From positions 1 through 20,063 of the forward strand of contig JAOUGG010000003.1 in NCBI GenBank assembly GCA_029857855.1: DNA of 20,063 bases. Direction: 5' to 3'. The notes below the pieces were generated by a model, which saw nothing but the letters and a program-made list of their open reading frames with translations, did not search any database and was not told the origin of the DNA. The translations under genes and the position numbers were made by a program. Shown piece after piece: positions 3,177-20,063 of this stretch (positions are counted from its first letter, which is position 1; every line of letters begins with the position of its first letter). The stretch is from Acidimicrobiia bacterium (GTDB lineage Bacteria > Actinomycetota > Acidimicrobiia > Acidimicrobiales > SZUA-35).

Positions 3177-3820
3177 GGCAGTTCCAACCCTACCTCAGCC
3201 CGATGCCGCAACGCCCGTGTCAGCCCGTTCTCGTACAGCTCGTCGAGGCTTCCGGTGTCGGCCGGACCCATGCCGACGAGTTCGAGCATCACATAGCCGT
3301 GGACGGTGGCGTAGAGATGATAGGCGGCGGCCGGGGGATCGATGTCGCCGGGAACCGTTGTGGCATCGGCCACGGCGTCGACCAGGAACTGAAAGGACAC
3401 GGCAGCTCGTTGGGCCGCCCGTTCGCTCGGCTCGAAATCGGGCACGGCCCGCCCGAACATCACCAGATAGTGGGTCGGATTGGCCAGCGCCCATCGACGG
3501 TAGGCCCGGCCTGCTTCGGCCAAATCGCCCGAGTGGTAGTGAGGGGTGAGGGATTCGTCAAAGGATTCGAAGCCGTCGAGGAAGATGGCCTCCACCAACC
3601 CGTGCTTGCCGCCGAAATGGGTGTAGATCCCCGTCGTCGAACAGCCGGCTCTGTCGGTGATGTTGCGCACGGTGAGTGCGGCGGCCCCATCGTGCTGTAG
3701 GACGCTGAGCGCGGCTTCGAGCAGCGTCCGTCGCATATCAGGAAGTGACGCTGCAGAGGGTGACGCTGCACGAGGTGACACAGCAGGTGGTGACGCAGCA
3801 GGAGTTGACCGGACGACCAT
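3173..3820 (-). CDS. TetR-family transcriptional regulator
   Basis: 215-aa regulator. The helix-turn-helix domain is at about residues 30-80 (TVRNITDRAGCSTTGIYTHF, 50-69). The C-terminal ligand domain contains YRRWALANPTHYLVMFGRA, typical of the WHG-type TetR C-terminal domain. Residues about 5-29 are an unusual Ser-Pro-Ala pentapeptide repeat. ATG 3820 has no Shine-Dalgarno but a TAACTT -10-like box ends 8 bases upstream, fitting a leaderless mRNA. The alternative start is Met29 (3736), just before the HTH domain. The gene diverges from the carotenoid oxygenase across two near-palindromes, so it probably controls that gene and itself. Its stop overlaps the helicase ATG, so both likely share a transcript. 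The ligand cannot be inferred; an apocarotenoid or aromatic compound is a guess from the neighbour. Confidence 0.9.
   Translation of the reverse strand: MVVRSTPAASPPAVSPRAASPSAASLPDMRRTLLEAALSVLQHDGAAALTVRNITDRAGCSTTGIYTHFGGKHGLVEAIFLDGFESFDESLTPHYHSGDLAEAGRAYRRWALANPTHYLVMFGRAVPDFEPSERAAQRAAVSFQFLVDAVADATTVPGDIDPPAAAYHLYATVHGYVMLELVGMGPADTGSLDELYENGLTRALRHRAEVGLELP
3746..3810. repeat. 15-bp tandem repeat in the TetR 5' end
   Basis: TGAC (TTGAC in the last unit) recurs at exactly 15-bp steps, starting at 3746, 3761, 3776, 3791 and 3806. Most units read TGACGCNGCANG-like. On the minus strand each unit encodes five residues of the form S-P-x-A-A/V, at the extreme N-terminus of the TetR protein. 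Confidence 0.8.
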
Positions 3821-3883: not shown

Positions 3884-5266
3884 ATGACCGCAACCGACGT
3901 CAACATCTATCTCGCAGGGAACTACGCCCCCGTCGCCGAGGAGGTCACGGCCTTCGACCTAGCGGTCGTCGGCGAACTCCCCGCCGAGCTCAACGGCCGT
4001 TACCTGCGCAACGGCCCGAACCCTGCCGGCGACGTCGACGTGCGCTCGCGCCACGCCACCCACCACTGGTTCACCGGCGACGGCATGGTTCACGGCATTC
4101 GCCTGCGGGAGGGGAAGGCCGAGTGGTACCGCAACCGGTATGTCGGATCGGCCGGGCTCAGCAGGCTCCGGGGCGAATCCGATATCAACGGACCCAACTG
4201 GAGCGGCATCGGCTTCGGGCCAAACACCAACGTCGGCGGTTTCGCCGGTCGAACCTGGGCCATGATGGAGGCCGGTGCCACGCCCGTCGAGCTGACCTAC
4301 GAGCTGGAAACCGTCGCCCGCAACGACTTCGACGGCACCCTCCCCGGCGCCTTCACCGCCCATCCCAAGTTCGACCCCGACTCCGGCGAGATGCACGCCA
4401 TGGTCTACGCCTGGGCCCAATGGCTGGACCACGTGCAGTACGTGATCGTCGGGCCCGACGGCAGGGTGAGCCGTACCGTCGACATCGGTCTCCCCGGCAT
4501 GACGATGCTGCACGACATGGCACTCACCGAGCGCTATGCCCTCGTGTTCGATCAGCCCTGCACGGTGGATCTCGATCTCGCTTTCGCCGGTCGATTCCCC
4601 TTCCGCTGGAATCCGGACTACGGCAACCGGGTCGGTCTGCTCCCCCGCAACGGCGACGCCGCCGACATCACCTGGATCGATGTGCCCATCGGGTACTCCT
4701 ACCACCCGATGAACTCCTATGACACCGTCGACGGTGGCGTCGTCGTCGACCTGTGCGTGTTCGACAAGATGTTCGACGCCGACATCCTCGGTCCGTTCGA
4801 GAACCTCCCAAGGCTGGAGCGCTGGGAGCTCGACCCCGCCCGGCGGACATCATCGGTCACCGTCATCGACGAGTCCGCCAACGAGTTCCCTCGGACACGG
4901 GGCTCCTTGTCGACCAAGCCGTACCGGTACGGCTACTGTGTCGGCGTGTCGAACGAACCGGGCGAACGGTGGACGACGATCAAGCACGACCTGGAGACCG
5001 GCGCCCGCCACGAGTTCGACCACGGCCCCGGTCGCGCTGCCGGCGAGGCGGTGTTCGTGGCCCGTGACGGCGGCGAGTCGGAGGACGACGGCTGGTTGTT
5101 GACCTTCGTCCACGACCAGAACGAGGGATCGGCCGAGTTCGTGGTGCTCGATGCCCGTGACTTCGAGCGGGGCTACGTCGCCCGGGTCCCACTCCCCCAG
5201 CGGGTTCCGTTCGGCTTCCACGGCAACTGGATCAGCGACCGCGCCGTCGCTCCCCCACCCCACTAG
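3884..5266 (+). CDS. Carotenoid oxygenase / carotenoid-cleavage-type dioxygenase
   Basis: 460-aa member of the RPE65/carotenoid cleavage dioxygenase family, non-haem Fe(II) enzymes that split a C=C bond of carotenoids, apocarotenoids or stilbene-like substrates. Family blocks are in order: ELNGRYLRNGPNP (about 35-47), HHWFTGDGMVHGI (60-72), FTAHPKFDP (157-165), MLHDMALTE (208-216), SYHPMNSYD (272-280) and PFGFHGNW (442-449). The four iron-ligand histidines are therefore H160, H210, H274 and H446, all present. ATG 3884 has GGAG 7 bases upstream. No signal peptide is seen, so it is probably cytosolic. It diverges from a TetR regulator with shared operators, so expression is probably substrate-induced. 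No carotenoid synthesis gene is in the window, so the substrate stays open: carotenoid, lignostilbene or similar. Confidence 0.95.
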   Translation: MTATDVNIYLAGNYAPVAEEVTAFDLAVVGELPAELNGRYLRNGPNPAGDVDVRSRHATHHWFTGDGMVHGIRLREGKAEWYRNRYVGSAGLSRLRGESDINGPNWSGIGFGPNTNVGGFAGRTWAMMEAGATPVELTYELETVARNDFDGTLPGAFTAHPKFDPDSGEMHAMVYAWAQWLDHVQYVIVGPDGRVSRTVDIGLPGMTMLHDMALTERYALVFDQPCTVDLDLAFAGRFPFRWNPDYGNRVGLLPRNGDAADITWIDVPIGYSYHPMNSYDTVDGGVVVDLCVFDKMFDADILGPFENLPRLERWELDPARRTSSVTVIDESANEFPRTRGSLSTKPYRYGYCVGVSNEPGERWTTIKHDLETGARHEFDHGPGRAAGEAVFVARDGGESEDDGWLLTFVHDQNEGSAEFVVLDARDFERGYVARVPLPQRVPFGFHGNWISDRAVAPPPH

Positions 5267-6940: not shown

Positions 6941-9520
6941 TCAGGTGCCGTTGCGGCGACCGCCCGCGGTGCCGATCCAGTCGGCCGGTTTCGGCGCGTC
7001 GGTGGCCGCCGTCGGGTCCAGCTCACGAACGAGTCGCCACGCCTCGTCGGCTCTGGTTCTGGCGTCGACATAGGTCCGCTGGGCCTGGCGAGCCGCCGAC
7101 TCGGCGGCCGCCACGACCTCGGGGTCGAAGGCCCGGGCCGACTGGGCGTCGATGCGGGCCAGCTCGGCGGTGACCACCAGGGTCGCCGCATCCTGGCTGA
7201 GCTGCTCGGCCCGGGCCGACAGCTCGGTCGCCCGATCGTGGGCCGCGGCCACCGCGGCCAGGTCGGTGTCGTCGGGCTGGACATCGAGTTCGAACGGCGT
7301 CGCGGCATGGGCGAACACCGAGACACCGAGTTCGGGGAGCAGGGCTTCGAGCGGTCGATCGCCCGGGCCCAGCGGTTGGCCGTGGCGAACACGAACGGGA
7401 GCGAACACGAGATCGGCGGAACGGTTCAGCCGGTTGAAATCCGACGGCGAGGCAAGGCCCACCACCGTCGCCGACAGCCGAGCCTCGTCGATCAGTGTGG
7501 CCACCCGCTCGCGGTCGACCATGTCGTCGCTTTCGACCAATACTTCGATCACAGCGTCGCTCCAGGACGAGCTTCTGGTGCACATCCAGGCCAGCATCGT
7601 CAACAGTTGACCGGTGTGGTCATCGGACCACCACACGCGGATGCTCCGACCCTTCGAACTCCCGGCGGCGTGGAAGAGGCGGGACCAGCCGGCATCGGGC
7701 GTGTGCACAATGCCGACATTGCAGCTGTGACGGATGGCGGTGTGGATCATCGACCCGTGGTCCACCGCCTTCTCCCGGTCACAGTCGTCCTCGAACCAGC
7801 TGGTCAGAACCATGTTGGCCCGCAGGGATCCGATGCCGTGAGCCTGCAACATCGCACTCACACCACCGTCGAGCGTGTCGGCGGCCAGCACCCGGCCGTA
7901 CACCGTTCCCTCCCGGTCGCTCAGCTCCTTCTGCAGTTCGAGATCGATGCGCCCGGCGATCTTTCGGGCCATGGGGCCCTTCCCGACCACGATGCGGGCC
8001 ACCGTGGTGAAGCCCGCCCCGCCCTCGAGCCACTCCGCCACCTCGCACAACCGCTGGCGGCGGGTCGGGTCGCGGGGGGCGAAGGCGACGGTGCAGGGCC
8101 GCCAGTCGCGCGTCGTGTCGGTCTGCATGCTGAAGTTCGCCAGGTTGATGCGCAGGCTCGAAGCGTGAAAGCCCCGGGTACTGTCGGCCCATCGGGTCTG
8201 TTGCACCGTCCGGGACAGGTACCGGTACAACCCGAACAGGGCGCCGACGGCCACGACACCGGCGAGCGGGTTGATGGCGATGATCGTGCCGAGGCATGCC
8301 GCCGTGCCGGCAAGGCTGAGACGCCAGTCGAAGAATCGGAAACGGGGGCGGAACGAGGTGTTGGCGGCTCGGGCCTCCGAGTACGTGGCGTAGTTGATCA
8401 TGCCGTAGGTGACCAGGAAGAACATCGAGATCACGGGGGCGACGAGGTCCAGGTCACCGAGGCCGACGGTCACCAGTGCGATACCGGCGCTGAGCAGCAC
8501 CCCTCGACGGGGATTGTCGGCTGGTCCGACACCCAGCGCGAACGGTTCGAGCGGTTTGATGAGCCGATCGGCGGCCAGGCGCTGCAGAACCCTCGGAGCG
8601 CCGACGATGGAGGCGACGGCCGACGAGAGCGTGGCGGCCACGACCCCGACATCGACCAGCCACGGCGCGAGGGAGAGGCGGCGCATGATCGCCGTGTCAT
8701 CCCGCAACGCCTCCAGCGGGACGACCATGGCCAGGGTGAGGATCACGATCAGGTAGACCACAGTGGAGACACCGATGGCGCCGAACGTGCCCACACTGAT
8801 CGACCTCGACGGCGTCTTCAGGTCGCCCGACATGGCGACCCCCTGGGTGAACCCGGTGATCGCCGGGAAGAAGATGGCGAATCCCACCCACATCGACACG
8901 CCGTCACCGTCGGAGGGCCGCCAGAAGTTGTCGGCGAGGAGCGACGGCTGCAGGTCGTCGACCACACCGGCCATATAGCCGATGATCGCCACCACCAGGC
9001 ATACCATCACCACGTACTGGAGTTTCGTGGCGATGTCGGCGCCGAGCCAGGCCACCCCCAGCAGGAACACGATCGTCCCGAGCGCGACGAGGCGGGGAAA
9101 GAAGGCGTCGTCGATCGCCACGATGCTGGCCACGGCCTCCCCGAGACCGATGGCGTAGAAGGCGACGGAGATCGACATGGCCACGTAGAGCACGAGCCCG
9201 ATGGCACCACCGAACGCCGGGCCCAGGGTCCGGGAGATCAGGAAGTAGACTCCCCCGCCGCCGACCCGGAGGTTGGTGGCCAGGGCGGCGAGCGAGAACG
9301 TGGTGAGGACCGACACCAGCGTCGAAATCCCCAAGATCACCAGCATCTCGGCCAGACCAACCGAGCCGGTGACGTAGCCGAGCCGCAGGAACAGGACGAG
9401 GCCGAGGATGGTGAGGACGCTCGGGGTGAAGACACCGCCGAACGTGCCCAGCTTCGCGCCGGGCGCGGTCCCCACCGGAGTTGTCGCCCGCCCAGCCGAC
9501 GTCGTCGTGTTGGTTCCCAT
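6941..9520 (-). CDS. SLC12-like (cation-chloride cotransporter type) APC-superfamily permease
   Basis: 859-aa membrane protein from ATG 9520; an in-frame ATG at 9550 would add 10 residues. ATG 9520 has AGGG 6 bases upstream, which is better. The N-terminal ~450 residues form about twelve membrane helices. They start with GGVFTPSVLTILGLVLFLRL and VGGGGVYFLISRTLGP, which match the first helices of eukaryotic Na-K-Cl and K-Cl cotransporters (SLC12), including the GG-Y-FMISR-type turn. The remaining ~400 residues are cytosolic. They comprise a mixed alpha/beta region resembling the SLC12 C-terminal domain (VARIVVGKGPMARK, then LTSWFEDD and WWSDDHTGQL) and an Ala-rich tail with coiled-coil character (about the last 100 residues). 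It may move chloride with cations, or amino acids; the substrate cannot be fixed from sequence. Two hairpin repeats follow its stop. Confidence 0.85.
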   Translation of the reverse strand: MGTNTTTSAGRATTPVGTAPGAKLGTFGGVFTPSVLTILGLVLFLRLGYVTGSVGLAEMLVILGISTLVSVLTTFSLAALATNLRVGGGGVYFLISRTLGPAFGGAIGLVLYVAMSISVAFYAIGLGEAVASIVAIDDAFFPRLVALGTIVFLLGVAWLGADIATKLQYVVMVCLVVAIIGYMAGVVDDLQPSLLADNFWRPSDGDGVSMWVGFAIFFPAITGFTQGVAMSGDLKTPSRSISVGTFGAIGVSTVVYLIVILTLAMVVPLEALRDDTAIMRRLSLAPWLVDVGVVAATLSSAVASIVGAPRVLQRLAADRLIKPLEPFALGVGPADNPRRGVLLSAGIALVTVGLGDLDLVAPVISMFFLVTYGMINYATYSEARAANTSFRPRFRFFDWRLSLAGTAACLGTIIAINPLAGVVAVGALFGLYRYLSRTVQQTRWADSTRGFHASSLRINLANFSMQTDTTRDWRPCTVAFAPRDPTRRQRLCEVAEWLEGGAGFTTVARIVVGKGPMARKIAGRIDLELQKELSDREGTVYGRVLAADTLDGGVSAMLQAHGIGSLRANMVLTSWFEDDCDREKAVDHGSMIHTAIRHSCNVGIVHTPDAGWSRLFHAAGSSKGRSIRVWWSDDHTGQLLTMLAWMCTRSSSWSDAVIEVLVESDDMVDRERVATLIDEARLSATVVGLASPSDFNRLNRSADLVFAPVRVRHGQPLGPGDRPLEALLPELGVSVFAHAATPFELDVQPDDTDLAAVAAAHDRATELSARAEQLSQDAATLVVTAELARIDAQSARAFDPEVVAAAESAARQAQRTYVDARTRADEAWRLVRELDPTAATDAPKPADWIGTAGGRRNGT

Positions 9521-9636
9521 TCGGCGCCCTATTGTCCTCAACCGAGCCATCTACCCAGCAAGCTCGTGTCGGCGAGAAGACTCCAACCCGCAGCGCTCAG
9601 TATTGTCGATCCCCGCCCGAAAAGCCATGGTGGCCT

Positions 9637-9671: not shown

Positions 9672-11078
9672 TCAGCGTCCGGCGCCTCGCAGGAGACGTG
9701 ACACCTTGTGGGCCAGTTTCGCCTCCCTGCCGGTCGTGTCCTCCCGCACGTCGGCGGCGCCGAGAAGGATGCGGCTCGAACGCACCCCAAGCCACCGCAG
9801 GGGCTCCGGTTCCCAGCGCCGAGCGGTTGCCCCGACCCAGGGCAGGCTCGTCCGCTCGGTGTCGTGACCGAGAATGAGTTCGGCCATGGTCCGCCCGGCC
9901 ATGTTCGAAGCGGCTACCCCCTCGCCGACGTAGCCGCCGAGCACGCCGAGCCCGTCGGCCCGGTCGAAGGTCAGGCCGGGAATCCAGTTGCGAGGGATGC
10001 CAAGCACCCCACCCCAACGGTGGGTGAAGCCGATGCCCTCCAGCGCCGGAAGCAGATCGACGAGCGTCTCCGCAATCAACTCGTGCGACGGCTGGTGCAG
10101 CTCGGCCTGCCGGCTGATCCGGGAGCCGAACAGATACGGCACGCCGCGGCCGCCGAAGGCGATCCGGTCATCCGCGGTTCGCTGACCGTAGATGACCATG
10201 AACCGGTCGTCGGCAAAGGTCGGTCGATGGTCGAGCCGGACGGCGGCCAGCTGCTCCGGCGTCAAAGGCTCGGTGGCGACCATCAGCGAGTACACCGGAA
10301 GGACATCACGCCGATGGCCTTTCAGGTCCCTGGTGTAGGCCTCGGTGGCCCGCACGACGATCTCGGCCCGGACATCACCCTGGTCGGTGACCACCCGACC
10401 CGACTCGAAGCCGGTCACCGCCGTCTCCTCCACGATCCGAACCCCGGCCCGTTCCACCACCTCGGCCAGACCCCGCACGAGGCGGGCCGGGTCGAGTGCG
10501 GCCGACGGAGCGAAGAAGATGCCGGACTGAACGCGGCTGGCTCCGATGTGTTCGGTCGCCTCGTCGGCGGTCAACAGGCGGATCTCCTCGTCGGTGAAGC
10601 CCCAGGAACGGTGATGGGCGATCTCGTCGCGCTGGCGCATGGCCTGAGGCCGGTTGCGGGCGACGCGGATGGTGCCGCCCTTGGCGTAATGGCAGTCGAC
10701 CGCCTCGGTCTCGGAGAACCGCCCGATCTCGTCGACGGCATCGAATGCGGCCCGGGCCAGCCGCATGGCCTCCGCCTGGGTGGAACGGCGGGCGTACCAT
10801 TCGAGCGGACCGGCCAGCTCGCCGACGGCCCAGCCTCCGTTGCGGCCCGACGCCCCGAACCCGCAGAACTGCCGCTCGATCACGGTGATGCGCATGGAGG
10901 GGTCGGCGCGGACGAGGTAGTAGGCGGTCCACAGTCCGCTGAACCCCCCGCCGATGATGGCGACGTCGGCGTCGGCGGCCTCGGGCCGGGCGTCGAGACC
11001 GGGGCGCCGCCCGATGGGAGGATCGAGCCGATCGAGCCAAAGCGCCTTGGTCACCGTTTCGGAAAGATCCATCGACAT
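9672..11078 (-). CDS. FAD-dependent oxidoreductase of the DAO family, PuuB-like amine oxidase
   Basis: 468-aa DAO-fold flavoenzyme. The FAD-binding Rossmann motif VAIIGGGFSGLWTAYYL is at about 39-55, preceded by a ~35-residue N-terminal arm. Next come the second dinucleotide strand (ITVIERQFCGFGASG, 64-78) and GASGRNGGW (75-83), the pattern of gamma-glutamylputrescine oxidase (PuuB) and related N-substituted-amine oxidases. Near the C-terminus, RWGGVLGIPRNWIPG and GLGVLGGYVGEGVAASNMAG complete the FAD site. It probably oxidises a secondary or primary amine to aldehyde plus H2O2. It diverges from an operon with a polyamine-type importer, a GNAT and a C45 amidase, supporting an amine substrate. 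ATG 11078 has no ribosome site. A TAGATT box (11079-11084) lies 6 bases before the in-frame ATG at 11072, so a leaderless start there is possible. Confidence 0.88.
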   Translation of the reverse strand: MSMDLSETVTKALWLDRLDPPIGRRPGLDARPEAADADVAIIGGGFSGLWTAYYLVRADPSMRITVIERQFCGFGASGRNGGWAVGELAGPLEWYARRSTQAEAMRLARAAFDAVDEIGRFSETEAVDCHYAKGGTIRVARNRPQAMRQRDEIAHHRSWGFTDEEIRLLTADEATEHIGASRVQSGIFFAPSAALDPARLVRGLAEVVERAGVRIVEETAVTGFESGRVVTDQGDVRAEIVVRATEAYTRDLKGHRRDVLPVYSLMVATEPLTPEQLAAVRLDHRPTFADDRFMVIYGQRTADDRIAFGGRGVPYLFGSRISRQAELHQPSHELIAETLVDLLPALEGIGFTHRWGGVLGIPRNWIPGLTFDRADGLGVLGGYVGEGVAASNMAGRTMAELILGHDTERTSLPWVGATARRWEPEPLRWLGVRSSRILLGAADVREDTTGREAKLAHKVSRLLRGAGR

Positions 11079-11198
11079 AATCTATTCGTTGGGCTCATGG
11101 TTGGCTGCCCCGAACTCGGGATCGCCCGGTCTTCGGTCCCAGCCGGTTACGGCGTAAGCTGTGTGGATCCGTTTGGCCCCTACAGGAAGTGGGGAACT
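11079..11198. promoter_or_regulatory. Divergent promoter region between amine oxidase and C45-pot operon
   Basis: On plus, TTCGGT (11132-11137) and TAAGCT (11155-11160) are separated by 17 bp and fit -35/-10 boxes. The predicted mRNA start is about 30 bases before GTG 11199. The near-palindrome TTACGGCGTAA (11147-11157) overlaps that -10 box and could be an operator. On minus, TAGATT (complement of 11079-11084) is a -10 candidate for the oxidase. Confidence 0.45.
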
Positions 11199-12314
11199 GT
11201 GAAGCGTCCACCTATTCGAGTTGTCGATCTTTCCGGGTCTCCGAGCGAGTTGGGCCGTCGACACGGGCTCGCTCACGCCGAGGAGATCCGGGCCTACACC
11301 TCCGACCGGGTGGCGCTCGTCGCCGGTGGCCGCTGGATCGACGGCCCGATCCCGACGGCGGATGTCCTCGACATCGCCGAGTCGATGCTCGGAGCCCACG
11401 AGGAGTTCCATCCAGGGCTGCACGCCGAGATGATGGCGATGGCCGATGCCGTCGGCATCACCGCGGCCGAGGCGATCGTCGTTGGCGGATTCACCGATTT
11501 CGTCGACACCGTCCGGGCCGTGGTCGGAGGCGATCATCCGGCCACGGTGATCGAGGACGACTGCACCGCCGTCATCGTCCCCGACAGCAGGGGCGACGAA
11601 GCCGACGACGGCCGCAACGGTTACTACGGTCAGACCTGGGACATGCACGACACCGCCACCGAGTTCGTGGTCCTCCTGCGGCTCACGCCGAGCGACGCCC
11701 CGGCCGCACTGGTCTTCACCACGACCGGCTGTCTCGGTCAGATCGGTATGAACGAACTGGGTGTCTGCGTCGGGATCAACAACCTGATCTGCACCGACGG
11801 GACCCGTGGGGTGACCTGGCCCAGCGTCGTGCGGGCCATGCTCGAACGGGAGTCGGCCGACGACGCACTCAACGTCCTCCTGGCTGCCGACCTGGCCGGC
11901 GCCCACAACTACCTGATCCTCGATTCCGACGGTGTCGGCTACAACGTCGAGGCGATGCCGACCGCACGAGTCGTCACCAAACTCGACGCCGACCCCCTGA
12001 TACACACCAACCACGTCCTCCACGACGAGGCACGAGCGGTCGAGGGCAAACGGGACCACGCGCTCATGGCCAGCTCGGCCGCCCGTCTGGCCCGGGCGAC
12101 CGAACTCCTGGCCGACGGTCCAATCGACGCCGAGCGGCTGTTCGAGCTGACCCGCGACCCCGAGTCCATCTGCCAGGTTCCGTTCGACCCCTACCGCATC
12201 GAATCGTCGGGGGCGGCCGTGATGCGGCCGGCCTCGGGCGACTTCTGGGCCTGCTGGGGACCGCCGTCGGACAACGAGTACCAGCACATCGCCATGCCGA
12301 CGACCGGCCGGTGA
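11199..12314 (+). CDS. C45-family autoproteolytic acyltransferase/amidohydrolase
   Basis: 371-aa N-terminal-nucleophile-type hydrolase of peptidase family C45, the family of fungal isopenicillin N acyltransferase and insect Tan. The hallmark DDCTAVIV is at 120-127, giving Cys122 as predicted nucleophile after self-cleavage. GYYGQTWDMH (141-150) and FTTTGCLGQIGMNELGVCVGINNL, which follows, are core strands of the family. Before Cys122 lies a ~120-residue helical propeptide-like part (SELGRRHGLAHAEEI). No signal peptide is present, so it is probably cytosolic. GTG 11199 has GGGGA just upstream and a good family N-terminus; the same frame stays open much further up, but that part is antisense to the oxidase. 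It is the first gene of the operon, 7 bp before the GNAT. It likely hydrolyses or transfers an acyl group on an amine; the substrate is inferred only from context. Confidence 0.88.
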   Translation: MKRPPIRVVDLSGSPSELGRRHGLAHAEEIRAYTSDRVALVAGGRWIDGPIPTADVLDIAESMLGAHEEFHPGLHAEMMAMADAVGITAAEAIVVGGFTDFVDTVRAVVGGDHPATVIEDDCTAVIVPDSRGDEADDGRNGYYGQTWDMHDTATEFVVLLRLTPSDAPAALVFTTTGCLGQIGMNELGVCVGINNLICTDGTRGVTWPSVVRAMLERESADDALNVLLAADLAGAHNYLILDSDGVGYNVEAMPTARVVTKLDADPLIHTNHVLHDEARAVEGKRDHALMASSAARLARATELLADGPIDAERLFELTRDPESICQVPFDPYRIESSGAAVMRPASGDFWACWGPPSDNEYQHIAMPTTGR

Positions 12315-12321
12315 GCACACG

Positions 12322-13101
12322 ATGACCGATCCAACCGACAACCCGGCGCTGCTCACCGACCCCGAGCTTCTCGCCGACCTCACCGTCGACGGCGAACCGG
12401 TGGTCGCCATCGGCGCCCGCAGCCGCCTGCATTACGCCAACATCGTGCCCCGCTGGGCCGAGGACCTGGAGGCCCTCGAGCTGGCGTCGTACCCCACGGC
12501 CGACCCGGAAGACCTGTACAACCGGGTCGAGCTGCGGGCCCTGGCCACCGATTTCGGCATCGGCTGTTTCGCCGGCTTCGATACCGAACCGGCGGATCCC
12601 GCCGAATCCGACGATGCCGCCATTGCGGTCGACGCCGGCCCGAAGCTGGTGTCGATGGGTCTCGGCCTCCGAACCGATTTCGACTTCGACAGCCCCCAGC
12701 ACACGATCCACGACATCATGGGACACACGCCCGACGACAGCGGCGACGACCCCGACGGCCGCTGGTACTACGGGACCGGTATCTCCACCCGGATCGAGTA
12801 CCGTCGCCGCGGCATCGGCCGGGAGGTCTACGCACTCCGCAAGCAGGTCTGCCGTGACCTCGGCCTCCTCGGTATCGTCGCCGGTGGTGTGATGCCTGGC
12901 TACGCCGGCCATATCGACACGATGACCGCCGATGAGTACATTGATGCGGTACGGCGCGGCGACCTGTACGACCCGACTCTGAGTTTCCAGTCCGCGAACG
13001 GATTCGAACTGGGACCGGCGTTGGAGAACTACATAACCGATCCGGCCGTCAACAACTATGCAGCACTGATCGTCTGGCACAATCCGGCGGCGACAACCTG
13101 A
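12322..13101 (+). CDS. GNAT-family N-acetyltransferase
   Basis: 259-aa acetyl-CoA-dependent transferase. The acetyl-CoA loop is in STRIEYRRRGIGREVYALRK (155-174), with the R-x-x-G-I-G-R signature. The C-terminal part (GVMPGYAGHIDTMTADEY, 189-206, then FQSANGFEL, 222-230) resembles, from memory, the GNAT half of bifunctional GNAT/carbon-nitrogen-hydrolase proteins. Here the hydrolase half is absent and a C45 amidase lies next door. The N-terminal ~40 residues precede the GNAT fold and are unassigned. ATG 12322 comes 7 bp after the C45 stop and lacks a clear ribosome site, so translation may be coupled. The substrate is probably an amine carried by the downstream importer, which is inference. 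The potA start follows 47 bp later. Confidence 0.85.
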   Translation: MTDPTDNPALLTDPELLADLTVDGEPVVAIGARSRLHYANIVPRWAEDLEALELASYPTADPEDLYNRVELRALATDFGIGCFAGFDTEPADPAESDDAAIAVDAGPKLVSMGLGLRTDFDFDSPQHTIHDIMGHTPDDSGDDPDGRWYYGTGISTRIEYRRRGIGREVYALRKQVCRDLGLLGIVAGGVMPGYAGHIDTMTADEYIDAVRRGDLYDPTLSFQSANGFELGPALENYITDPAVNNYAALIVWHNPAATT

Positions 13102-13103
13102 GA

Positions 13104-13126
13104 ATTCCGTACCGTCCTGGCGGAAT
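13104..13126 (+). other. Weak intercistronic hairpin before potA
   Basis: ATTCCG (13104-13109) can pair with CGGAAT (13121-13126) over an 11-nt loop. It is only 6 bp long and may be chance. Confidence 0.25.
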
Positions 13127-13148
13127 CGAAAGACATGGGGAGACACCG

Positions 13149-14276
13149 ATGACAGAGGCCGGCGTGGCTCACGTCGACGTCGAGGAAGTGGCGACCACGG
13201 TCGACGCCGTGGCGATTCGAGGCGTGACCAAACGCTTCGGCAGCGGCGACGGCGAAGTGGTGGCCGTCGACGACATCGACCTGTCGATCGCGGATGGCGA
13301 GTTCTTCGCCATGCTCGGCCCATCGGGCTGCGGCAAGACCACGACACTGCGCATGATCGCCGGTCTGGAGTTCCCCACGTCGGGGAGCCTGAAGATCTTC
13401 GGCGACGAGGTCGGCACGTTGCCACCGAACAAGCGACCTGTGAACACGGTGTTCCAGAACTACGCCCTGTTCCCCCACATGACCGTCCTCGACAACGTCA
13501 GCTTCGGGTTGCGTATGCAGGGCGTCGACAAGGCCACCGCTTCGGGCAGGGCGAGCGAGCTGATCGACCTCGTTCAGCTCAGCGGCATGGAGAAGCGGAA
13601 GCCGTCACAGCTGTCGGGCGGCCAGCAGCAGCGGGTGGCGCTGGCCCGAGCGCTGGTCAACCGGCCGAAGGTGCTGCTGCTCGACGAACCGCTCGGCGCC
13701 CTCGACCTCAAACTCCGTCAGGAGATGCAACTCGAACTGAAGAGCCTGCAACGGGATCTCGGCGTCAGTTTCGTGTTCGTCACCCACGACCAGGAGGAGG
13801 CACTCACGATGAGCGATCGGATCGCCGTGATGCACGACGGGCGGCTGCTCCAGGTCGGCTCGGCGGAAGAGCTCTACGAGCGGCCCGCCAACCGATTCGT
13901 GGCCGACTTCATCGGCCAGACCAACCTCATCGAGGCCACCGTCGCCGACGGCGACATGATCGTGCTCGGCAACGGCTCGAAGGTCCTGGCCCCCTCCGAC
14001 TACGCCGCCGGCACCCCGGTGGCGATGTCGCTGCGCCCGGAGGCGATCTCCATCGGCACCCGGGGCTCGGTTCCGGCCGAGCACCAGGCCGACAGCCTCG
14101 ACGGTGTCGTCTCGACCGCCGTCTACCTCGGCCACGCGCTCGACTACCACGTCAGCGTCGACTGGATCGACCTCGAGGTCCGGGCGCCGGCCGTCGGATC
14201 CCGCGGTCGGTTCCAGCCCGGCGACGAGGTGTCGGTTTGGTGGGACCGGTCATCGAACTGGGTGGTGGCCGACTAA
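13149..14276 (+). CDS. potA: Polyamine-type ABC importer, ATP-binding subunit PotA
   Basis: 375-aa ATPase of the spermidine/putrescine (PotA) class. Visible motifs: Walker A GPSGCGKTT (57-65); Q-loop in VFQNYALFPHMTV (101-113); ABC signature LSGGQQQR (155-162); Walker B VLLLDEPLGALD (175-186); and a switch His in FVTHDQEEAL. After about residue 255 comes a TOBE-type domain (PEAISIG and onwards) for regulatory or substrate-linked control. A 20-residue acidic arm precedes the nucleotide domain. ATG 13149 has GGAG six bases upstream, a strong site. Its stop TAA is directly followed by the potB ATG, so the two are translationally coupled. It works on the inner face of the membrane with PotB and PotC. 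Confidence 0.95.
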   Translation: MTEAGVAHVDVEEVATTVDAVAIRGVTKRFGSGDGEVVAVDDIDLSIADGEFFAMLGPSGCGKTTTLRMIAGLEFPTSGSLKIFGDEVGTLPPNKRPVNTVFQNYALFPHMTVLDNVSFGLRMQGVDKATASGRASELIDLVQLSGMEKRKPSQLSGGQQQRVALARALVNRPKVLLLDEPLGALDLKLRQEMQLELKSLQRDLGVSFVFVTHDQEEALTMSDRIAVMHDGRLLQVGSAEELYERPANRFVADFIGQTNLIEATVADGDMIVLGNGSKVLAPSDYAAGTPVAMSLRPEAISIGTRGSVPAEHQADSLDGVVSTAVYLGHALDYHVSVDWIDLEVRAPAVGSRGRFQPGDEVSVWWDRSSNWVVAD

Positions 14277-15200
14277 ATGGCAGCCGTCTTCGAACGAGAC
14301 GAGATCGACGTCGAACCGTTCATCCACGGTGAGGAGGCCACCCCGGAGTTCGAGGCGGCGAACATCGCCCAGGATCGACGACGGGGCCTGCTCATCGCGC
14401 TGCCCGCCTACCTCTACCTCCTCGTCTTCTTCGCCATCCCGCTGCTGACGGTGGTGGTCTACTCGTTCGCCACTCGCGACCGGTTCGGCGGGGCCGACTT
14501 GACCAGCTTCAACCTCGACTCCTACGTGGAGCTGAACGACCAACTGATCCGCACGATCATCCTGCGCTCCGCCGGTCTGGCCATCCTCACGACCCTCATC
14601 TGCCTGGTCGTCTCCTACCCGTTCGCCTACTACATGGCCACTCGGTCCGAGACGGCCCGCAACGTCATGCTGGTTTTCGTGATGATTCCGTTCTGGACCA
14701 ACTTCTTGGTCCGCAACTACGCCTGGTACGTGATCCTCGGCACCGACGGGCCGCTGAGTCGGGTGGCGGAGTTCCTCGGGTTCGGACCGACCCGGGTGCT
14801 GTTCACCCAGTCGGCCGTGGTACTGGGCCTCGTCTACGGGTTCCTGCCGTTCATGATCCTCCCGCTGTACGCCTCGATCGAACGCATCGACGGCAGGCTC
14901 ATCGAGGCCAGTCGGGATCTCTACGCCAACGGGCTCCAATCGTTTCGCCACGTGCTGTGGCCGCTGTCGCTACCGGGTGTCATCGCCGGCTCGATCCTCG
15001 TGTTCATCCCCTCGCTCGGCGCCTACGTCACGCCGCAGATCCTAGGCGGCACCGGAACCAGCATGCTCGGCTCCTACATCGTCACGCAGTTCCTGACCGC
15101 CAGGAACCTGCCCTTCGGGGCGGCGATGTCGACGGTGCTCATGGTCTTCATGCTCGCCGCCACCATCATCTACTTCCGCAAGGGAGGTCGCACGCTGTGA
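14277..15200 (+). CDS. potB: Polyamine-type ABC importer permease PotB
   Basis: 307-aa inner-membrane permease with about six helices, the first at roughly 38-62 (LLIALPAYLYLLVFFAIPLL). The EAA loop that docks on PotA is EASRDLYANGLQSFRHVLWP (210-229), and a PotB-like SLGAYVTPQILGGTG (246-260) follows. A 35-residue acidic cytosolic N-terminus precedes the first helix and is longer than in E. coli PotB. The ATG directly abuts the potA stop. The potC GTG follows 13 bp after its stop. It forms the heterodimeric channel with PotC. Confidence 0.95.
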   Translation: MAAVFERDEIDVEPFIHGEEATPEFEAANIAQDRRRGLLIALPAYLYLLVFFAIPLLTVVVYSFATRDRFGGADLTSFNLDSYVELNDQLIRTIILRSAGLAILTTLICLVVSYPFAYYMATRSETARNVMLVFVMIPFWTNFLVRNYAWYVILGTDGPLSRVAEFLGFGPTRVLFTQSAVVLGLVYGFLPFMILPLYASIERIDGRLIEASRDLYANGLQSFRHVLWPLSLPGVIAGSILVFIPSLGAYVTPQILGGTGTSMLGSYIVTQFLTARNLPFGAAMSTVLMVFMLAATIIYFRKGGRTL

Positions 15201-15213
15201 TCGGACGTCAGTC

Positions 15214-16032
15214 GTGAGCGGCATCACCGAGCCCAGAGGCTGGACGAAGGGCGCGCTCGCCGCCACATCCTGGCTCGTCTACTTCTTCTTCTACGCACCG
15301 ATCCTGGTGCTGATCATCTTCTCGTTCTCCGACAGCCGCAACGCCAGCGTCTGGGGCGGCTTCACCACATCGTGGTACTCCGACTTCGCCTCCGACAGCG
15401 AATTGACCGGGGCCCTGTGGAACTCGCTCCGCATCGCCGTCGTGGCCACGCTGGTCTCGGTCGTGCTCGGCACCATGAGTGCGATCGCGCTCGAACGGTT
15501 CCGCTTCCGGGGCCAGCGGGTGTTCGACGCCCTGCTGTACCTCCCGGTGATCATTCCGGACGTGACCATGGCCGTGATGCTGCTGCTGTTCTTCGCCCAG
15601 GCGGCCAACTGGTTCGGATTCTCGAAGGGCTTCGGCACGATCGCGCTCAGCCACATCGCCTTCTGCATCAGCTTCGTCTCGATCGTGGTCCGGGCCCGCC
15701 TGGCCGGTATGGACGACAAGCTGGAGGAGGCGGCCATGGATCTGTACGCGTCCCGCTGGCAGGCGTTCCGCCACGTGACGCTGCCCCTGATCATGCCCGG
15801 CATTCTGGGCGGCGGTCTGCTGGCCATGACGCTGTCGCTCGACGACGTGGTGATCACCCAGTTCGTGACCGGTGGCGGATGGAGCACGCTGCCGGTGTAT
15901 GTTTTCAGCTTGATACGTAAGGGCGTCACACCGCTGATCAACGCGGTGTCGGTCGTCATGCTCGTCGCCTCGATGGTGCTGGTGGCCCTCTCGTTGCTGG
16001 CGCAACGGCTACGAGGCGACGACGCGATCTAG
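15214..16032 (+). CDS. potC: Polyamine-type ABC importer permease PotC
   Basis: 272-aa permease paired with PotB. The first helix is at about 17-38 (TSWLVYFFFYAPILVLIIFS), matching the PotC N-terminus, followed by a SFSDSRNASVWGGFT-like loop. The EAA loop is EEAAMDLYASRWQAFRHVTL (171-190), and SLDDVVITQFVTGGG (208-222) is the PotC signature after it. GTG 15214 is the best start; the earlier GTG at 15197 in another frame stops within a few codons. The ribosome site is weak, so coupling with potB is likely. A hairpin lies in the 60-bp gap before potD. Confidence 0.94.
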   Translation: MSGITEPRGWTKGALAATSWLVYFFFYAPILVLIIFSFSDSRNASVWGGFTTSWYSDFASDSELTGALWNSLRIAVVATLVSVVLGTMSAIALERFRFRGQRVFDALLYLPVIIPDVTMAVMLLLFFAQAANWFGFSKGFGTIALSHIAFCISFVSIVVRARLAGMDDKLEEAAMDLYASRWQAFRHVTLPLIMPGILGGGLLAMTLSLDDVVITQFVTGGGWSTLPVYVFSLIRKGVTPLINAVSVVMLVASMVLVALSLLAQRLRGDDAI

Positions 16033-16042
16033 GAAGCCAGGA

Positions 16043-16059
16043 CGTCGGATGTTCCGACG
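16043..16059 (+). other. Intercistronic hairpin between potC and potD
   Basis: CGTCGGA (16043-16049) pairs perfectly with TCCGACG (16053-16059) around a TGT loop, 10 bases after the potC stop and 33 before the potD ATG. Such hairpins often stabilise the binding-protein part of an ABC-importer mRNA or partly terminate transcription. The role here is inferred. Confidence 0.6.
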
Positions 16060-16092
16060 GAATGAAACACAGAGAACAGGCAAGGGAGAGAC

Positions 16093-17199
16093 ATGACCTC
16101 ATCACGAGTTCGGTGGAAGGTGGTGATCGCCGCGTTCGCCATGATTCTGGCCGGGTGCGGCGGAGACTCCGGCTCCGAATCGGCCGCCGGCGAATGCGAG
16201 CTCGGCCAAACCGACGGATCGCTCGCCCTCTACAACTGGGCCGAGTACATCGACCCCGAGCAGCTCGACGCCTTCGCGGCCGAGTACGGCATCGCGGCCA
16301 CCATGACCGAATACGACTCGAACGAGGCCATGTTGCCCGTCGTGTCGGCGGGCAACTCCGGCTACGACGTCATCGTCCCGTCCGACTACATGGTCGGCAT
16401 CATGATCGACGGCGAATTCGTCCAGCCCCTCAACTTCGATCTGATCCCCAACGCGGCGAACATCTCGGACGATTTCGCCAACCCGAGCTACGACCCCGAG
16501 CAGACCTACTCGGTTCCCTACCAGTGGGGTTACACCGGCCTGGCAGTCGACACCGCTGTCGTCGGCACCGACTTTCCCCGCAGCTGGGACCTCGTCTTCG
16601 GCGACGCCGTGCCGGCCGAGGCGGTCGGCAAGATCACGTTGCTGAACGACCCCCGGGAGACGTTGGGGGCGGCCCTCAAGTCGCTCGGCTACTCGCTCAA
16701 CACGACCGACCAGGGCGAGCTCGACGAGGCTCAGGCCTTGATCGAGTCCTCGAAGGACAATCTGCTCCGGTTCGACACGGACTCGTCCGATGAGCTGCTG
16801 ACCTCCGGCGAGTCGGCCATCGCCCACGGCTTCTCGGGTGACATGCTCACCCAGTTCCTGGAGATGGACGATCCGAGCCGATACGTGTTCTTCGTACCCG
16901 AGGAGGGCGGCACCCGCTGGATCGACAACATGGTCATCCCGTTCGACGCCCCCCACCCCTGCACAGCCCACACGTTCATCAACTGGATGCTCGACGCCGA
17001 GCAGGGCGCGGCCCTGTCGAACTGGAACTACTACGGCACACCCAACTCGGCGGCCATCGACGGCCTTGACGATGAACTCAATGCGTTCCTGACCGATCCG
17101 AGCGTGCTGCCCGGTGGTCTCGGCAATGTGGAGGAGATCGCCGACACCGGCGACTTCGAGATCAACTACTCGGACGCCTTCGAAAACGCCAAGGGCTGA
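16093..17199 (+). CDS. potD: Polyamine-type extracellular substrate-binding lipoprotein PotD
   Basis: 368-aa lipoprotein. It has a basic N-terminus (RVRWK), a hydrophobic stretch and a lipobox LAGC with Cys22 as the lipid anchor. YNWAEYIDPEQ (47-57) and YDVIVPSDYMV (91-101) match the PotD fold. By recollected alignment with E. coli PotD, polyamine-contact residues are kept at W49, E51, Y52, Y99, D186 and E189 (NDPRE) and at W276 and D278 (RWIDN). The Trp in E. coli's VWNGS segment appears to be His245 or nearby (IAHGFSGD), which could alter specificity. ATG 16093 has AGGGAGA just upstream. It is the last gene of the operon, outside the membrane, delivering substrate to PotBC. A polyamine or a related diamine is the probable ligand. 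Confidence 0.94.
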   Translation: MTSSRVRWKVVIAAFAMILAGCGGDSGSESAAGECELGQTDGSLALYNWAEYIDPEQLDAFAAEYGIAATMTEYDSNEAMLPVVSAGNSGYDVIVPSDYMVGIMIDGEFVQPLNFDLIPNAANISDDFANPSYDPEQTYSVPYQWGYTGLAVDTAVVGTDFPRSWDLVFGDAVPAEAVGKITLLNDPRETLGAALKSLGYSLNTTDQGELDEAQALIESSKDNLLRFDTDSSDELLTSGESAIAHGFSGDMLTQFLEMDDPSRYVFFVPEEGGTRWIDNMVIPFDAPHPCTAHTFINWMLDAEQGAALSNWNYYGTPNSAAIDGLDDELNAFLTDPSVLPGGLGNVEEIADTGDFEINYSDAFENAKG

Positions 17200-17219
17200 T
17201 CGCCCGGCAACGACGTTGA

Positions 17220-17249
17220 ACTCCCGCTGTCCATCCGGGCGGCGGGAGT
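17220..17249. terminator. Hairpin between potD and the convergent DUF4282 gene
   Basis: ACTCCCGC (17220-17227) pairs perfectly with GCGGGAGT (17242-17249) over a 14-nt loop. It lies 20 bases after the potD stop and 22 before the end of the convergent gene. There is no U-run, but position and symmetry suit a bidirectional terminator. Confidence 0.6.
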
Positions 17250-17271
17250 GTCGCGTCGGGATTCGGGTGAG

Positions 17272-18025: not shown

Positions 18026-19108
18026 TCAGTGAGCGTTGACGAACAGCCGGCCGGTGGCAGTAGCGAGGAAGGCGTCGAACGGGATCTCCTCCTGTTTGAT
18101 GAAGCCCCGCTCCGGCAACATGCCGTCTCGGACCATCTGGATCACCGACGCTACCGAACCGGCGGTCGTCCAGGCGATGGCCGTGGCTTGCTCGCCGCCG
18201 ACCATGATCGGTCGGAACTTTCGCACGTACTCGAGTCGTTTGAGCTGATCGTCGATCCAGCCTTCGGAGGCCACGTGGATGTAGACCGCGTCCTCGGCCA
18301 CGGGCGGTTTGGCGTTGGTCAGGATCTCCCCCGCCAGCTCACGCCGCTCCCGCATCAGCAGCTCATGGAAGAAGAAGTTCATCAGATCCATGTGGCCGGG
18401 GTAGCGCATCGTCTTGTAGTCGATGTTCTCGACCCGGTCGAGGTAGGTCTCACACATCGTGCCGAGGCCGCCTGAGGTGGTGAACGCCTCGAGCCGGGTC
18501 CCGGCCACGTAGACGGTCTCCTTCCACTCCATGGGCGACACCCACTTGTGCACCCCCTCCTCGATGACCTCGCAGTCGTTCAGGTACTCGTTGACCACCC
18601 CCTCCGGGGACCAGTTGAAGGCATAGGCCAGCAGTCCGGTCGGGTGCTCGGGCAGGGCACCGACCCGCATACGGATCGAGCGGCAGCGATCGAACGACTC
18701 GGCTTGGGAGGCGGCCACGATGCCGACGAAGCCGGGGGCCAGACCGCACTGGGGGGCCATCACCCCGGCCGACGTCTCGGCCAGCGATCGGATGTGCTTG
18801 GTGGTGGCGACGTCCTCGGTCAGATCGAAGTAGTGGATGCCGAGCCGGTGGGCCACATCGGCCACACCGATGTTGAACGAGTACGGGAGACACGACAGCA
18901 CGGCCTGACGGTCGGCCAGCGCGGCGGCCAGGGTCTCGGTGTCGGACACGTCGGTCGTCTTGACGGGAAACGGTTCGGACCCGGAGCGGGGCCGCACGTC
19001 GTGGCCGACGACATCGAAGCCGGCGTCGGCCAGGAGACGGGCGGCGAGCAGACCGACCTTGCCGAGGCCGAGAACGGCCACGGACTCAACGTCATCGTTG
19101 GTTCCCAC
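18026..19108 (-). CDS. Saccharopine-dehydrogenase-family enzyme, probable lysine 6-dehydrogenase type
   Basis: 360-aa NAD(P)-dependent enzyme. The Rossmann motif VAVLGLGKVGLLAARLL is at 10-26. PQCGLAPGFVGI (119-130), LEAFTTSGGLGT (206-217) and YKTMRYPGH (231-239) are the conserved blocks of lysine 6-dehydrogenase and saccharopine dehydrogenase C-domains. The length fits stand-alone lysine 6-dehydrogenase (about 370 aa), which turns L-lysine into alpha-aminoadipate semialdehyde. The substrate of that step is the product needed by the ALDH7 gene 2 bp upstream, so the two probably act in sequence. GTG 19108 has GAGG seven bases upstream, inside the ALDH gene end. A saccharopine-cleaving or carboxynorspermidine-type role is the main alternative. 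Confidence 0.85.
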   Translation of the reverse strand: MGTNDDVESVAVLGLGKVGLLAARLLADAGFDVVGHDVRPRSGSEPFPVKTTDVSDTETLAAALADRQAVLSCLPYSFNIGVADVAHRLGIHYFDLTEDVATTKHIRSLAETSAGVMAPQCGLAPGFVGIVAASQAESFDRCRSIRMRVGALPEHPTGLLAYAFNWSPEGVVNEYLNDCEVIEEGVHKWVSPMEWKETVYVAGTRLEAFTTSGGLGTMCETYLDRVENIDYKTMRYPGHMDLMNFFFHELLMRERRELAGEILTNAKPPVAEDAVYIHVASEGWIDDQLKRLEYVRKFRPIMVGGEQATAIAWTTAGSVASVIQMVRDGMLPERGFIKQEEIPFDAFLATATGRLFVNAH

Positions 19109-19110
19109 GC

Positions 19111-20063
19111 TCAGACCTCGAATCGGATGCCCTGAGCCAGCGGCAGCTCACGGGAGTAGTTGATGGTCTGGGTCTGGCGCCGCATGTAGCCCTTCCAGGC
19201 GTCGGACCCGGATTCCCGGCCGCCGCCGGTTTCCTTCTCCCCGCCGAATGCGCCGCCGATCTCGGCCCCCGATGGACCGATGTTGACATTCGCGATACCG
19301 CAGTCGGATCCGACCGTGGAGAGGAACTGCTCGGTCTCGCGGACGTCGGTGGAGAAGATGCACGACGACAGGCCCTGGGGCACGTCGTTCTGGATGGCGA
19401 TCGCCTCCTCGAGCGACGTGTACGGCATCACGTAGAGGATGGGGGCGAAGGTCTCCTCCCTGGTGAGTTCGGTCGGTCCGTCGAGTTCCACGACGGCCGG
19501 GGTCACGTAGTAGGCGTCGGGGTGGGCCTCGGCCATCACCCGCTCGCCGCCGAACACCTCGGCGCCGCCGGCCCGGGCCCGGTCGAGGGCGGAGGACATC
19601 GCAGCGTGGGCCCGACCGTCGATCAGCGGCCCGACGAGGGTCGAGGGATCGAGCGGATGACCGACCGGCAGGCCGGCGTAGACCTTCTTCAGCCGTTCGA
19701 CCAGATCGGCACGGATATCGGAGTGGACGATGAGGCGGCGCAGGGTGGTGCAACGCTGCCCGGCGGTGCCGACGGCGGAGAACACGATGGCCCGCAGGGC
19801 CATGTCGAGGTCGGCCGAAGGGGCGACGATCATGGCGTTGTTGCCGCCGAGTTCGAGGATGCAGCGGCCGAACCGTTCGGCCATCGCCGCCGACACCTTC
19901 CGGCCCATGGCGCATGAACCGGTGGCCGAGACGATCGCCACGTGGGGGCTGCCGGTGAGGACCTGACCGAGCTCCGGTCCGCCGACGAGCACCTGGGACA
20001 GGGCCTCGGGCGCTCCCCCGCCCTGGGCGTTGAAGCGGGCGACGGCCCGGTCGACGATGACCT
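19111..20063 (-). CDS. ALDH7-type aldehyde dehydrogenase (alpha-aminoadipate semialdehyde dehydrogenase), 5' end outside window
   Basis: The last 316 residues of an aldehyde dehydrogenase; the N-terminal part lies beyond the window edge. ILELGGNNAMIV holds the catalytic Glu, and FSAVGTAGQRCTTLRRL holds the nucleophile Cys (codon at 19750-19752). The C-terminus reads GAEIGGAFGGEKETGGGRES, then SDAWKGYMRRQTQTINYS, the signature of ALDH7 (antiquitin/AmaB). These enzymes oxidise alpha-aminoadipate semialdehyde to 2-aminoadipate in lysine degradation, with some betaine-aldehyde and lipid-aldehyde activity. The nucleotide-loop region reads SATGSCAMG. The stop is 2 bp before the saccharopine-dehydrogenase-like gene, so both form an operon. 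The fragment shows no internal break. Confidence 0.93.
   Translation of the reverse strand, partial: VIVDRAVARFNAQGGGAPEALSQVLVGGPELGQVLTGSPHVAIVSATGSCAMGRKVSAAMAERFGRCILELGGNNAMIVAPSADLDMALRAIVFSAVGTAGQRCTTLRRLIVHSDIRADLVERLKKVYAGLPVGHPLDPSTLVGPLIDGRAHAAMSSALDRARAGGAEVFGGERVMAEAHPDAYYVTPAVVELDGPTELTREETFAPILYVMPYTSLEEAIAIQNDVPQGLSSCIFSTDVRETEQFLSTVGSDCGIANVNIGPSGAEIGGAFGGEKETGGGRESGSDAWKGYMRRQTQTINYSRELPLAQGIRFEV

Follow-up and report, generated by a model that had tools for sequence, protein, structure and literature searches.

Gene organization of the cluster

The DNA analyzed here, contig JAOUGG010000003.1 of an Acidimicrobiia bacterium (20,063 nucleotides; referred to as the window), carries a compact cluster of six genes on the plus strand. 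They encode a C45-family N-terminal nucleophile (Ntn) hydrolase, a GNAT protein and the four subunits of a polyamine-type importer, and a gene for a flavin-dependent oxidase leaves divergently from the same intergenic region (Table 1). The window is one entire contig of an assembly of 4.39 Mb in 978 contigs that is 81% complete. Along the series C45, GNAT, PotA, PotB, PotC and PotD, the gaps are 7, 47, 0, 13 and 60 bp. An initial annotation of the window had given these gaps, the coordinates and strands of the genes and the 120-bp divergent region, and all of them proved exact. A promoter consensus scan and an inverted-repeat search of this divergent region found nothing. A hairpin (-50 kcal/mol; z of -6.47; none of 200 shuffles as good) lies directly after potD and before a convergent gene; therefore, the operon probably ends there.

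Table 1. Features of the polyamine gene cluster and its flanks (positions within the window).
Feature	Position	Strand	Basis
DAO-family FAD oxidase, distant relative of PuuB	9672-11078	-	PF01266; in 70/80 loci
Divergent intergenic region, 120 bp, presumed site of both promoters	11079-11198		between two start codons
C45 Ntn hydrolase, AAT fold, GTG start; nucleophile Cys122 (codon 11562-11564)	11199-12314	+	PF03417
GNAT, subfamily tied to amidases	12322-13101	+	GNAT fold of predicted model; fusions to C45
PotA, ATPase of polyamine-type importer	13149-14276	+	TIGR01187
PotB, permease	14277-15200	+	best model PotB, below equivalog cut-off
PotC, permease	15214-16032	+	best model PotC, below equivalog cut-off
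PotD, polyamine-binding lipoprotein, lipobox LAGC near N-terminus	16093-17199	+	best model PotD, below cut-off; contact residues
Hairpin directly after potD, before convergent gene	17200-17271		folding energy; inverted repeat 17211-17258

Properties of the encoded proteins

The C45 protein matched PF03417 (AAT/C45) with 64.6 bits (cut-off 23.2). Its predicted model (predicted local distance difference test, pLDDT, of 88) superimposed on isopenicillin N acyltransferase (AAT; 2x1c) with a template-modeling score of 0.82, and Cys122 and Asp148 aligned with AAT Cys103 and Asp121. Both residues were identical in 121 of 121 aligned sequences (the window protein and the best 120 of 1822 C45 matches). 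The residue preceding the nucleophile is Asp in the window protein and Gly in AAT.

For the GNAT protein, no Pfam match was found at an E-value of 0.001; relatives with up to 69% identity carry PF00583, and the predicted model (pLDDT of 91) has a GNAT fold. The CoA-binding loop RRRGIG is present, and its residues R161, G164 and G166 were invariant in 120 of 120 aligned sequences, i.e., the window protein and 119 of the best 120 of 568 GNAT matches, the short P0111 having been dropped.

The oxidase matched PF01266 (DAO) with 193.7 bits and was 28% identical to E. coli PuuB over 388 amino acids. Its two best curated models were TIGR03329 and AmaA, both below cut-off. The same two models, likewise below cut-off, ranked first for E. 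coli PuuB itself.

The full polyamine-type importer claimed in the initial annotation is present with all four subunits, and PotA passed the polyamine subfamily model TIGR01187 (376.2 bits; cut-off 355.6). PotB (243.1 bits; equivalog cut-off 348), PotC (249.8 bits; equivalog cut-off 326) and PotD (140 bits; cut-off 582) each scored best with the model of their own name. PotD was compared with E. coli PotD at 13 positions, which we take to be its spermidine contacts and whose letters agree with the E. coli PotD sequence. Ten contacts are kept (W34, E36, Y37, S83, Y85, D168, E171, W255, D257 and Y293), and three positions are changed (T35A, W229F and Q327I). Nine of the ten kept contacts were identical in 49 of 49 aligned relatives; position 36 was Glu in 39 of them and Asp in the other 10. 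Judged from its sequence, PotD is thus of the polyamine type.

Conserved linkage in related loci and genomes

A scan of genome contigs with GNAT yielded 300 relatives; the 80 best loci were retained, and all 80-locus counts rest on these. Their titles name Acidimicrobiia or groups within this class, Actinobacteria/Actinomycetota or simply 'bacterium'; the other 220 relatives may belong to other groups. Neighboring genes were counted by tblastn with single queries at fixed thresholds (90 bits; 70 bits for Lrp and the PuuD-like gene), because a codon-based gene finder missed genes in AT-rich loci. Besides GNAT (80 by selection), the oxidase was found in 70 loci, C45 in 61, PotA in 53, and PotB, PotC and PotD in 52 each. 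Agmatinase was present in 43 loci, Lrp/AsnC in 19 and the gamma-aminobutyrate (GABA) transaminase GabT in 14; other transaminase queries hit 18, 15, 7 and 1 loci, and a class III transaminase of any kind occurred in 41 of 80. Lower counts were obtained for a PuuD-like gene (9), a betaine aldehyde dehydrogenase (BADH)-like aldehyde dehydrogenase (8), methylmalonate semialdehyde dehydrogenase (MMSDH; 7) and a glutamine synthetase (GS)/PuuA-like gene (5).

Forty-six loci had flanks of 6 kb or more in both directions. Among these, the oxidase was present in 43, C45 in 37, a complete PotABCD in 32 and agmatinase in 26, and oxidase, C45 and PotABCD occurred together in 23. C45 and GNAT lay at most 300 bp apart in 51 of the 80 loci. 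The short form of the cluster seen in the window recurred in L002 and L008. Other orders were oxidase diverging from GabT-C45-GNAT-Lrp-agmatinase-PotABCD, oxidase diverging from transaminase-C45-GNAT-agmatinase-PotABCD-MMSDH, C45-PotABCD followed by oxidase diverging from GNAT and, without C45, oxidase diverging from GNAT-agmatinase-PotABCD. Since gene orders differ between loci, the association survives rearrangement.

The same picture was obtained at the genome level. Among 148 genomes of the class, C45 (E-value of 1e-20) was found in 18 and GNAT in 15, and all 15 GNAT genomes were among the 18 (Fisher p of 6e-18, ignoring shared ancestry). In 12 of the 17 C45 genomes other than that of the window, PotD lay within 10 kb of C45, with 0.18 genomes expected by chance and zero to three PotD homologues per genome. 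The five exceptions were G027, G013 and G129 (no PotD match), G046, whose PotD lies on contigs other than that of C45, and G137, where the contig with C45 is 4.8 kb long. Of 296 genomes sampled across the phylum, three contained GNAT at an E-value of 1e-10: the source genome, G027, which belongs to the same order, and a genome with a weak match (E-value of 1e-15). Among the C45 matches listed, one bears the name Dehalococcoidia. Thus, the gene set shows conserved linkage, far beyond chance neighborhood. The initial annotation had named a missing linkage in related genomes as grounds for abandoning its proposal and a co-occurrence search as the check; the locus and genome scans carried out here found the linkage conserved. 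Its other such ground, a non-amine ligand of PotD, was examined at the level of residues, where most of the contact positions are kept.

Polyamine degradation genes in the related loci

Several enzymes encoded beside the cluster in relatives could be assigned with curated models. The agmatinase of L003 scored 444.7 bits with NF002564 (cut-off 302) and 250.2 bits with TIGR01230 (cut-off 174.3). GabT of L148 reached 520.4 bits (cut-off 506.65), and that of L043 fell just below (496.2 bits). An aminobutyraldehyde dehydrogenase was identified in L150 (682.3 bits; cut-off 615), and the transaminase of L079 passed NF005102 (728.2 bits; cut-off 574). The fullest putrescine-to-succinate set among the loci examined was that of L148, transcribed in the order GabT, succinate semialdehyde dehydrogenase (SSADH)-like dehydrogenase (484 bits, below the cut-off of 646), C45, GNAT, PotD and PotABC. 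In both L148 and L150, C45 directly follows the dehydrogenase gene. The source genome encodes its agmatinase on a separate contig, C183 (353.8 bits; cut-off 302).

In seven loci (L018, L020, L034, L035, L036, L046 and L049), a dehydrogenase of the MMSDH kind (662.3 bits in L035; cut-off 448.5) follows PotD, with a convergent PuuD-like C26 gene behind it; C45 and GNAT are present as well. The one PuuD-like gene scored from the 80 loci reached 78.9 bits (cut-off 266; E. coli PuuD 574.3). These loci hint at a three-carbon branch that may lead from 1,3-diaminopropane via beta-alanine to malonate semialdehyde. Two further candidates were discarded. Contig C753 of the source genome, considered as a second part of the cluster, carries the end of a transaminase gene and a dehydrogenase 65% identical to the L035 MMSDH; these lie beside a dihydropyrimidinase gene and look like pyrimidine breakdown. 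The amidohydrolase family f17, found downstream in nine loci and considered as a deacylase that could stand in for an absent C45, is located far from the operon; one member matched curated models weakly.

Fusions of GNAT with amidases

When the GNAT part of a C45-GNAT protein served as the query, 24 rows were obtained, 18 of them C45-GNAT proteins (one marked partial). The remainder comprised three nitrilase-GNATs, two double GNATs and one arginase-GNAT, P0267, which is more likely a frameshift between neighboring genes than a fusion. One C45-GNAT fusion, P0254, carries the name Ilumatobacter coccineus. In G027, a single-contig genome of 4.83 Mb, the C45 and GNAT domains lie within one open frame of 674 codons. 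The nitrilase-GNAT proteins (PF00795 and PF00583) carry a GNAT of this subfamily (48-49% identity across half of the domain in two of the three rows), likewise joined to an amidase, which belongs to the nitrilase superfamily instead of C45. No function for them was found in a limited search of open-licence literature. These parallel fusions, the C45-GNAT fusions themselves and the position of C45 right after the dehydrogenase gene in L148 and L150 are the main reasons for regarding GNAT and amidase as one functional pair.

The GNAT subfamily also occurs in other arrangements. In L149, L150 and L151, each polyamine cluster has two GNAT copies, one beside C45 and the other beside the oxidase, as if two steps had separate GNAT paralogues. 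P0269 and P0270 (577 and 599 amino acids) combine this GNAT subfamily with further GNAT-type Pfam domains.

Proposed function and alternatives

Because the linkage is conserved, agmatinase, GabT and aminobutyraldehyde dehydrogenase accompany the cluster in relatives, and PotD largely keeps its contact residues, the cluster is interpreted as a polyamine (agmatine/putrescine to GABA) utilization operon, seen here in Acidimicrobiia. The same three lines of evidence sustain the amine-processing system of the initial annotation. Its further proposal that GNAT and C45 fill the roles of PuuA and PuuD is one that we still only infer, because some genomes carry one of the two genes without the other and the source genome encodes PuuA-like ligases at other sites. 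What sequence comparison supports is the set of genes and their linkage, the connection to polyamines and the catalytic residues in C45.

In the proposed route, PotABCD would import a small polyamine (agmatine, putrescine or spermidine), and agmatinase, a cluster gene in many relatives and located on a separate contig in the source genome, would convert agmatine to putrescine. GNAT would then acylate one amine, the acyl group probably being acetyl from acetyl-CoA, and the DAO-family oxidase would turn the amine left free into an aldehyde. Further oxidation by an aldehyde dehydrogenase would yield N-acyl-GABA, from which C45 would release GABA by cleaving the amide, and GabT and SSADH would carry GABA to succinate. 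Where a locus also encodes transaminases, direct transamination may run in parallel. What we infer here is which acyl group is used, what GNAT and C45 act on and in which order the steps occur. We assign a probability of roughly 0.45 to this function, in which polyamines are imported and degraded, GNAT acylates the amine and C45 releases GABA once oxidation has taken place; it is the best supported of the explanations, albeit unproven. Somewhat more tentatively, it may be generalized to an acyl-protected route of Acidimicrobiia in which GNAT blocks the amine and C45, sometimes fused to it, frees GABA in place of gamma-glutamylation. The C45 subfamily would then be catabolic, and the nitrilase-GNATs would be the counterpart in other bacteria.

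Several observations weigh against the acyl-protected route. The window operon itself has no gene for an aldehyde dehydrogenase, a transaminase or an agmatinase, and 13 of the 46 well-covered loci lack any Pot gene. C45 and GNAT also occur apart: 13 of 18 genomes with a GNAT locus lacking C45 have no C45 at an E-value of 1e-10, and C45 is found without GNAT in G013, G042 and G129. The nearest solved folds to GNAT are GNAT-like decarboxylases, and in this family Gln (Gln223 in the window protein) occupies the place of the general-acid Tyr of canonical GNATs (weak alignment; E-value of 0.37). In addition, two GS-family proteins of the source genome scored 204.4 and 192.3 bits with the gamma-glutamylputrescine synthetase model, close to the 198.7 bits of E. 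coli PuuA (cut-off 650, all below).

The separability of C45 and GNAT would be accounted for if C45 acted at the entrance of the pathway. There it would deacylate imported N-acyl-polyamines, GNAT would separately acetylate excess polyamine, and the free diamine would then be oxidized or transaminated. Growth of P. aeruginosa on acetylputrescine via deacetylases, as described in an earlier study (PMC4784309), provides a precedent, and in some loci C45 adjoins PotD or PotA with no GNAT in between (C45 and PotA at most 300 bp apart in 6 of 80; also G042). Fusion of opposed activities on one substrate, as in the 18 fusion rows, would however create a futile pair, and the PotD residues fit free polyamines, the forms that this comparison covers. 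We regard this function, in which C45 would do the job of the histone deacetylase (HDAC)-type acetylpolyamine amidohydrolases of Pseudomonas, as unlikely. The decarboxylase-like fold of GNAT raises a different possibility, namely that it is a relative of the CurA/GphF decarboxylases rather than an acetyltransferase, or that the pair builds and breaks a signaling or storage amide. CurA/GphF GNAT-like decarboxylase domains and malonyl-CoA decarboxylase (MCD) use a catalytic His-Ser/Thr dyad; in the window GNAT, the Thr/His positions are Gly189 and Gln223 (same weak alignment), and a decarboxylase role was set aside since the dyad is missing. As the pair is also surrounded by a degradative gene set, another polyamine task of this kind is rather improbable.

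Ordinary gamma-glutamylation would need a PuuA-like ligase encoded elsewhere, with the oxidase acting as PuuB, C45 replacing PuuD on gamma-Glu-GABA and GNAT in a side role. The identity of the oxidase to PuuB and the two GS-family proteins of the source genome agree with it, as do the 5 of 80 loci that have a GS/PuuA-like gene within their 20 kb. The other 75 loci are without such a ligase, and the tight linkage of GNAT and its fusions would be left unexplained, which makes this explanation more doubtful still. A lysine/cadaverine pathway, finally, was suggested by two genes that adjoin the cluster at 18026-20061, encoding saccharopine-dehydrogenase-like and piperidine-6-carboxylate-dehydrogenase-like proteins. 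A homologue of the former was found in none of the 80 loci, L002 included, and the hairpin and the convergent gene lie between this pair and potD. Such a pathway is thus very improbable and was rejected as not conserved. The acyl-protected route remains the explanation that we prefer.

Other genes in the window

The two genes at 18026-20061 are on the minus strand, and the second, piperidine-6-carboxylate dehydrogenase-like gene (481 bits; NF050084) is cut by the contig end; they look like lysine catabolism and are apparently a separate unit. On the other side of the cluster, a minus-strand gene at 6941-9550 encodes an 869-amino-acid transporter with similarity to K-Cl cotransporters (PF00324 and PF03522; TIGR00930 at 386.5 bits, below cut-off). 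Among the 80 loci, it was again found only in the closest relative, L002. To our knowledge, proteins of this kind are unusual in bacteria. Further upstream, a plus-strand gene at 3884-5266 encodes an RPE65-family carotenoid cleavage dioxygenase (515.4 bits with NF052295, below the cut-off of 675), adjoined by a TetR gene at 3173-3820.

Comparison with known systems

Polyamine degradation is known to proceed by gamma-glutamylation, aminotransferase, direct oxidation, spermidine dehydrogenase and acetylation, according to a review (PMC9397018), which adds that what becomes of acetylspermidine in E. coli is not yet known. For the acetylpolyamine deacetylases of P. aeruginosa, no partner acetyltransferase is reported to have been identified (PMC4784309). 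Planktonic dissolved organic matter is believed to include polyamines as an important component, and SAR11 is said to employ agmatinase and transamination (PMC8437039). In the open-licence literature on polyamine routes, C45/Ntn hydrolases, Acidimicrobiia and Ilumatobacter, no paper was recognized as describing the present gene set. With GNAT and an amidase paired, and in some cases fused, next to genes for polyamine import, agmatinase and GABA enzymes, the conserved operon makes a concrete candidate for a complete acyl route. It would also suggest what a C45 subfamily and a GNAT subfamily, both known here by fold only, might do.

AAT (peptidase family C45) has the fold and the Cys/Asp residues in common with the window C45; the two are about 21% identical, and AAT acts in penicillin synthesis, whereas the window C45 stands in a polyamine gene context. 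Tan-like C45 enzymes had also suggested a carcinine/histamine connection, which was set aside. The amidohydrolases PA0321 and PA1409 of Pseudomonas would likewise free the polyamine product from its N-acetyl form (PMC4784309), but they are HDAC-type zinc enzymes, whereas C45 is a cysteine Ntn hydrolase. The closest parallel is the Puu pathway of E. coli K-12 (puuPADRCBE), which would have in common with the cluster the logic of blocking, oxidizing and unblocking; GABA transaminase and aldehyde dehydrogenases are found also in relatives of the cluster, and the window oxidase may be of the PuuB kind. Family searches of the window proteins confirmed that neither a PuuA-type ligase nor PuuD, the peptidase C26 gamma-Glu-GABA hydrolase, is encoded in the window, as the initial annotation had noted. 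Where the Puu pathway has a GS-type ligase, a C26 hydrolase and PuuP, the operon described here has GNAT, C45 and PotABCD instead.

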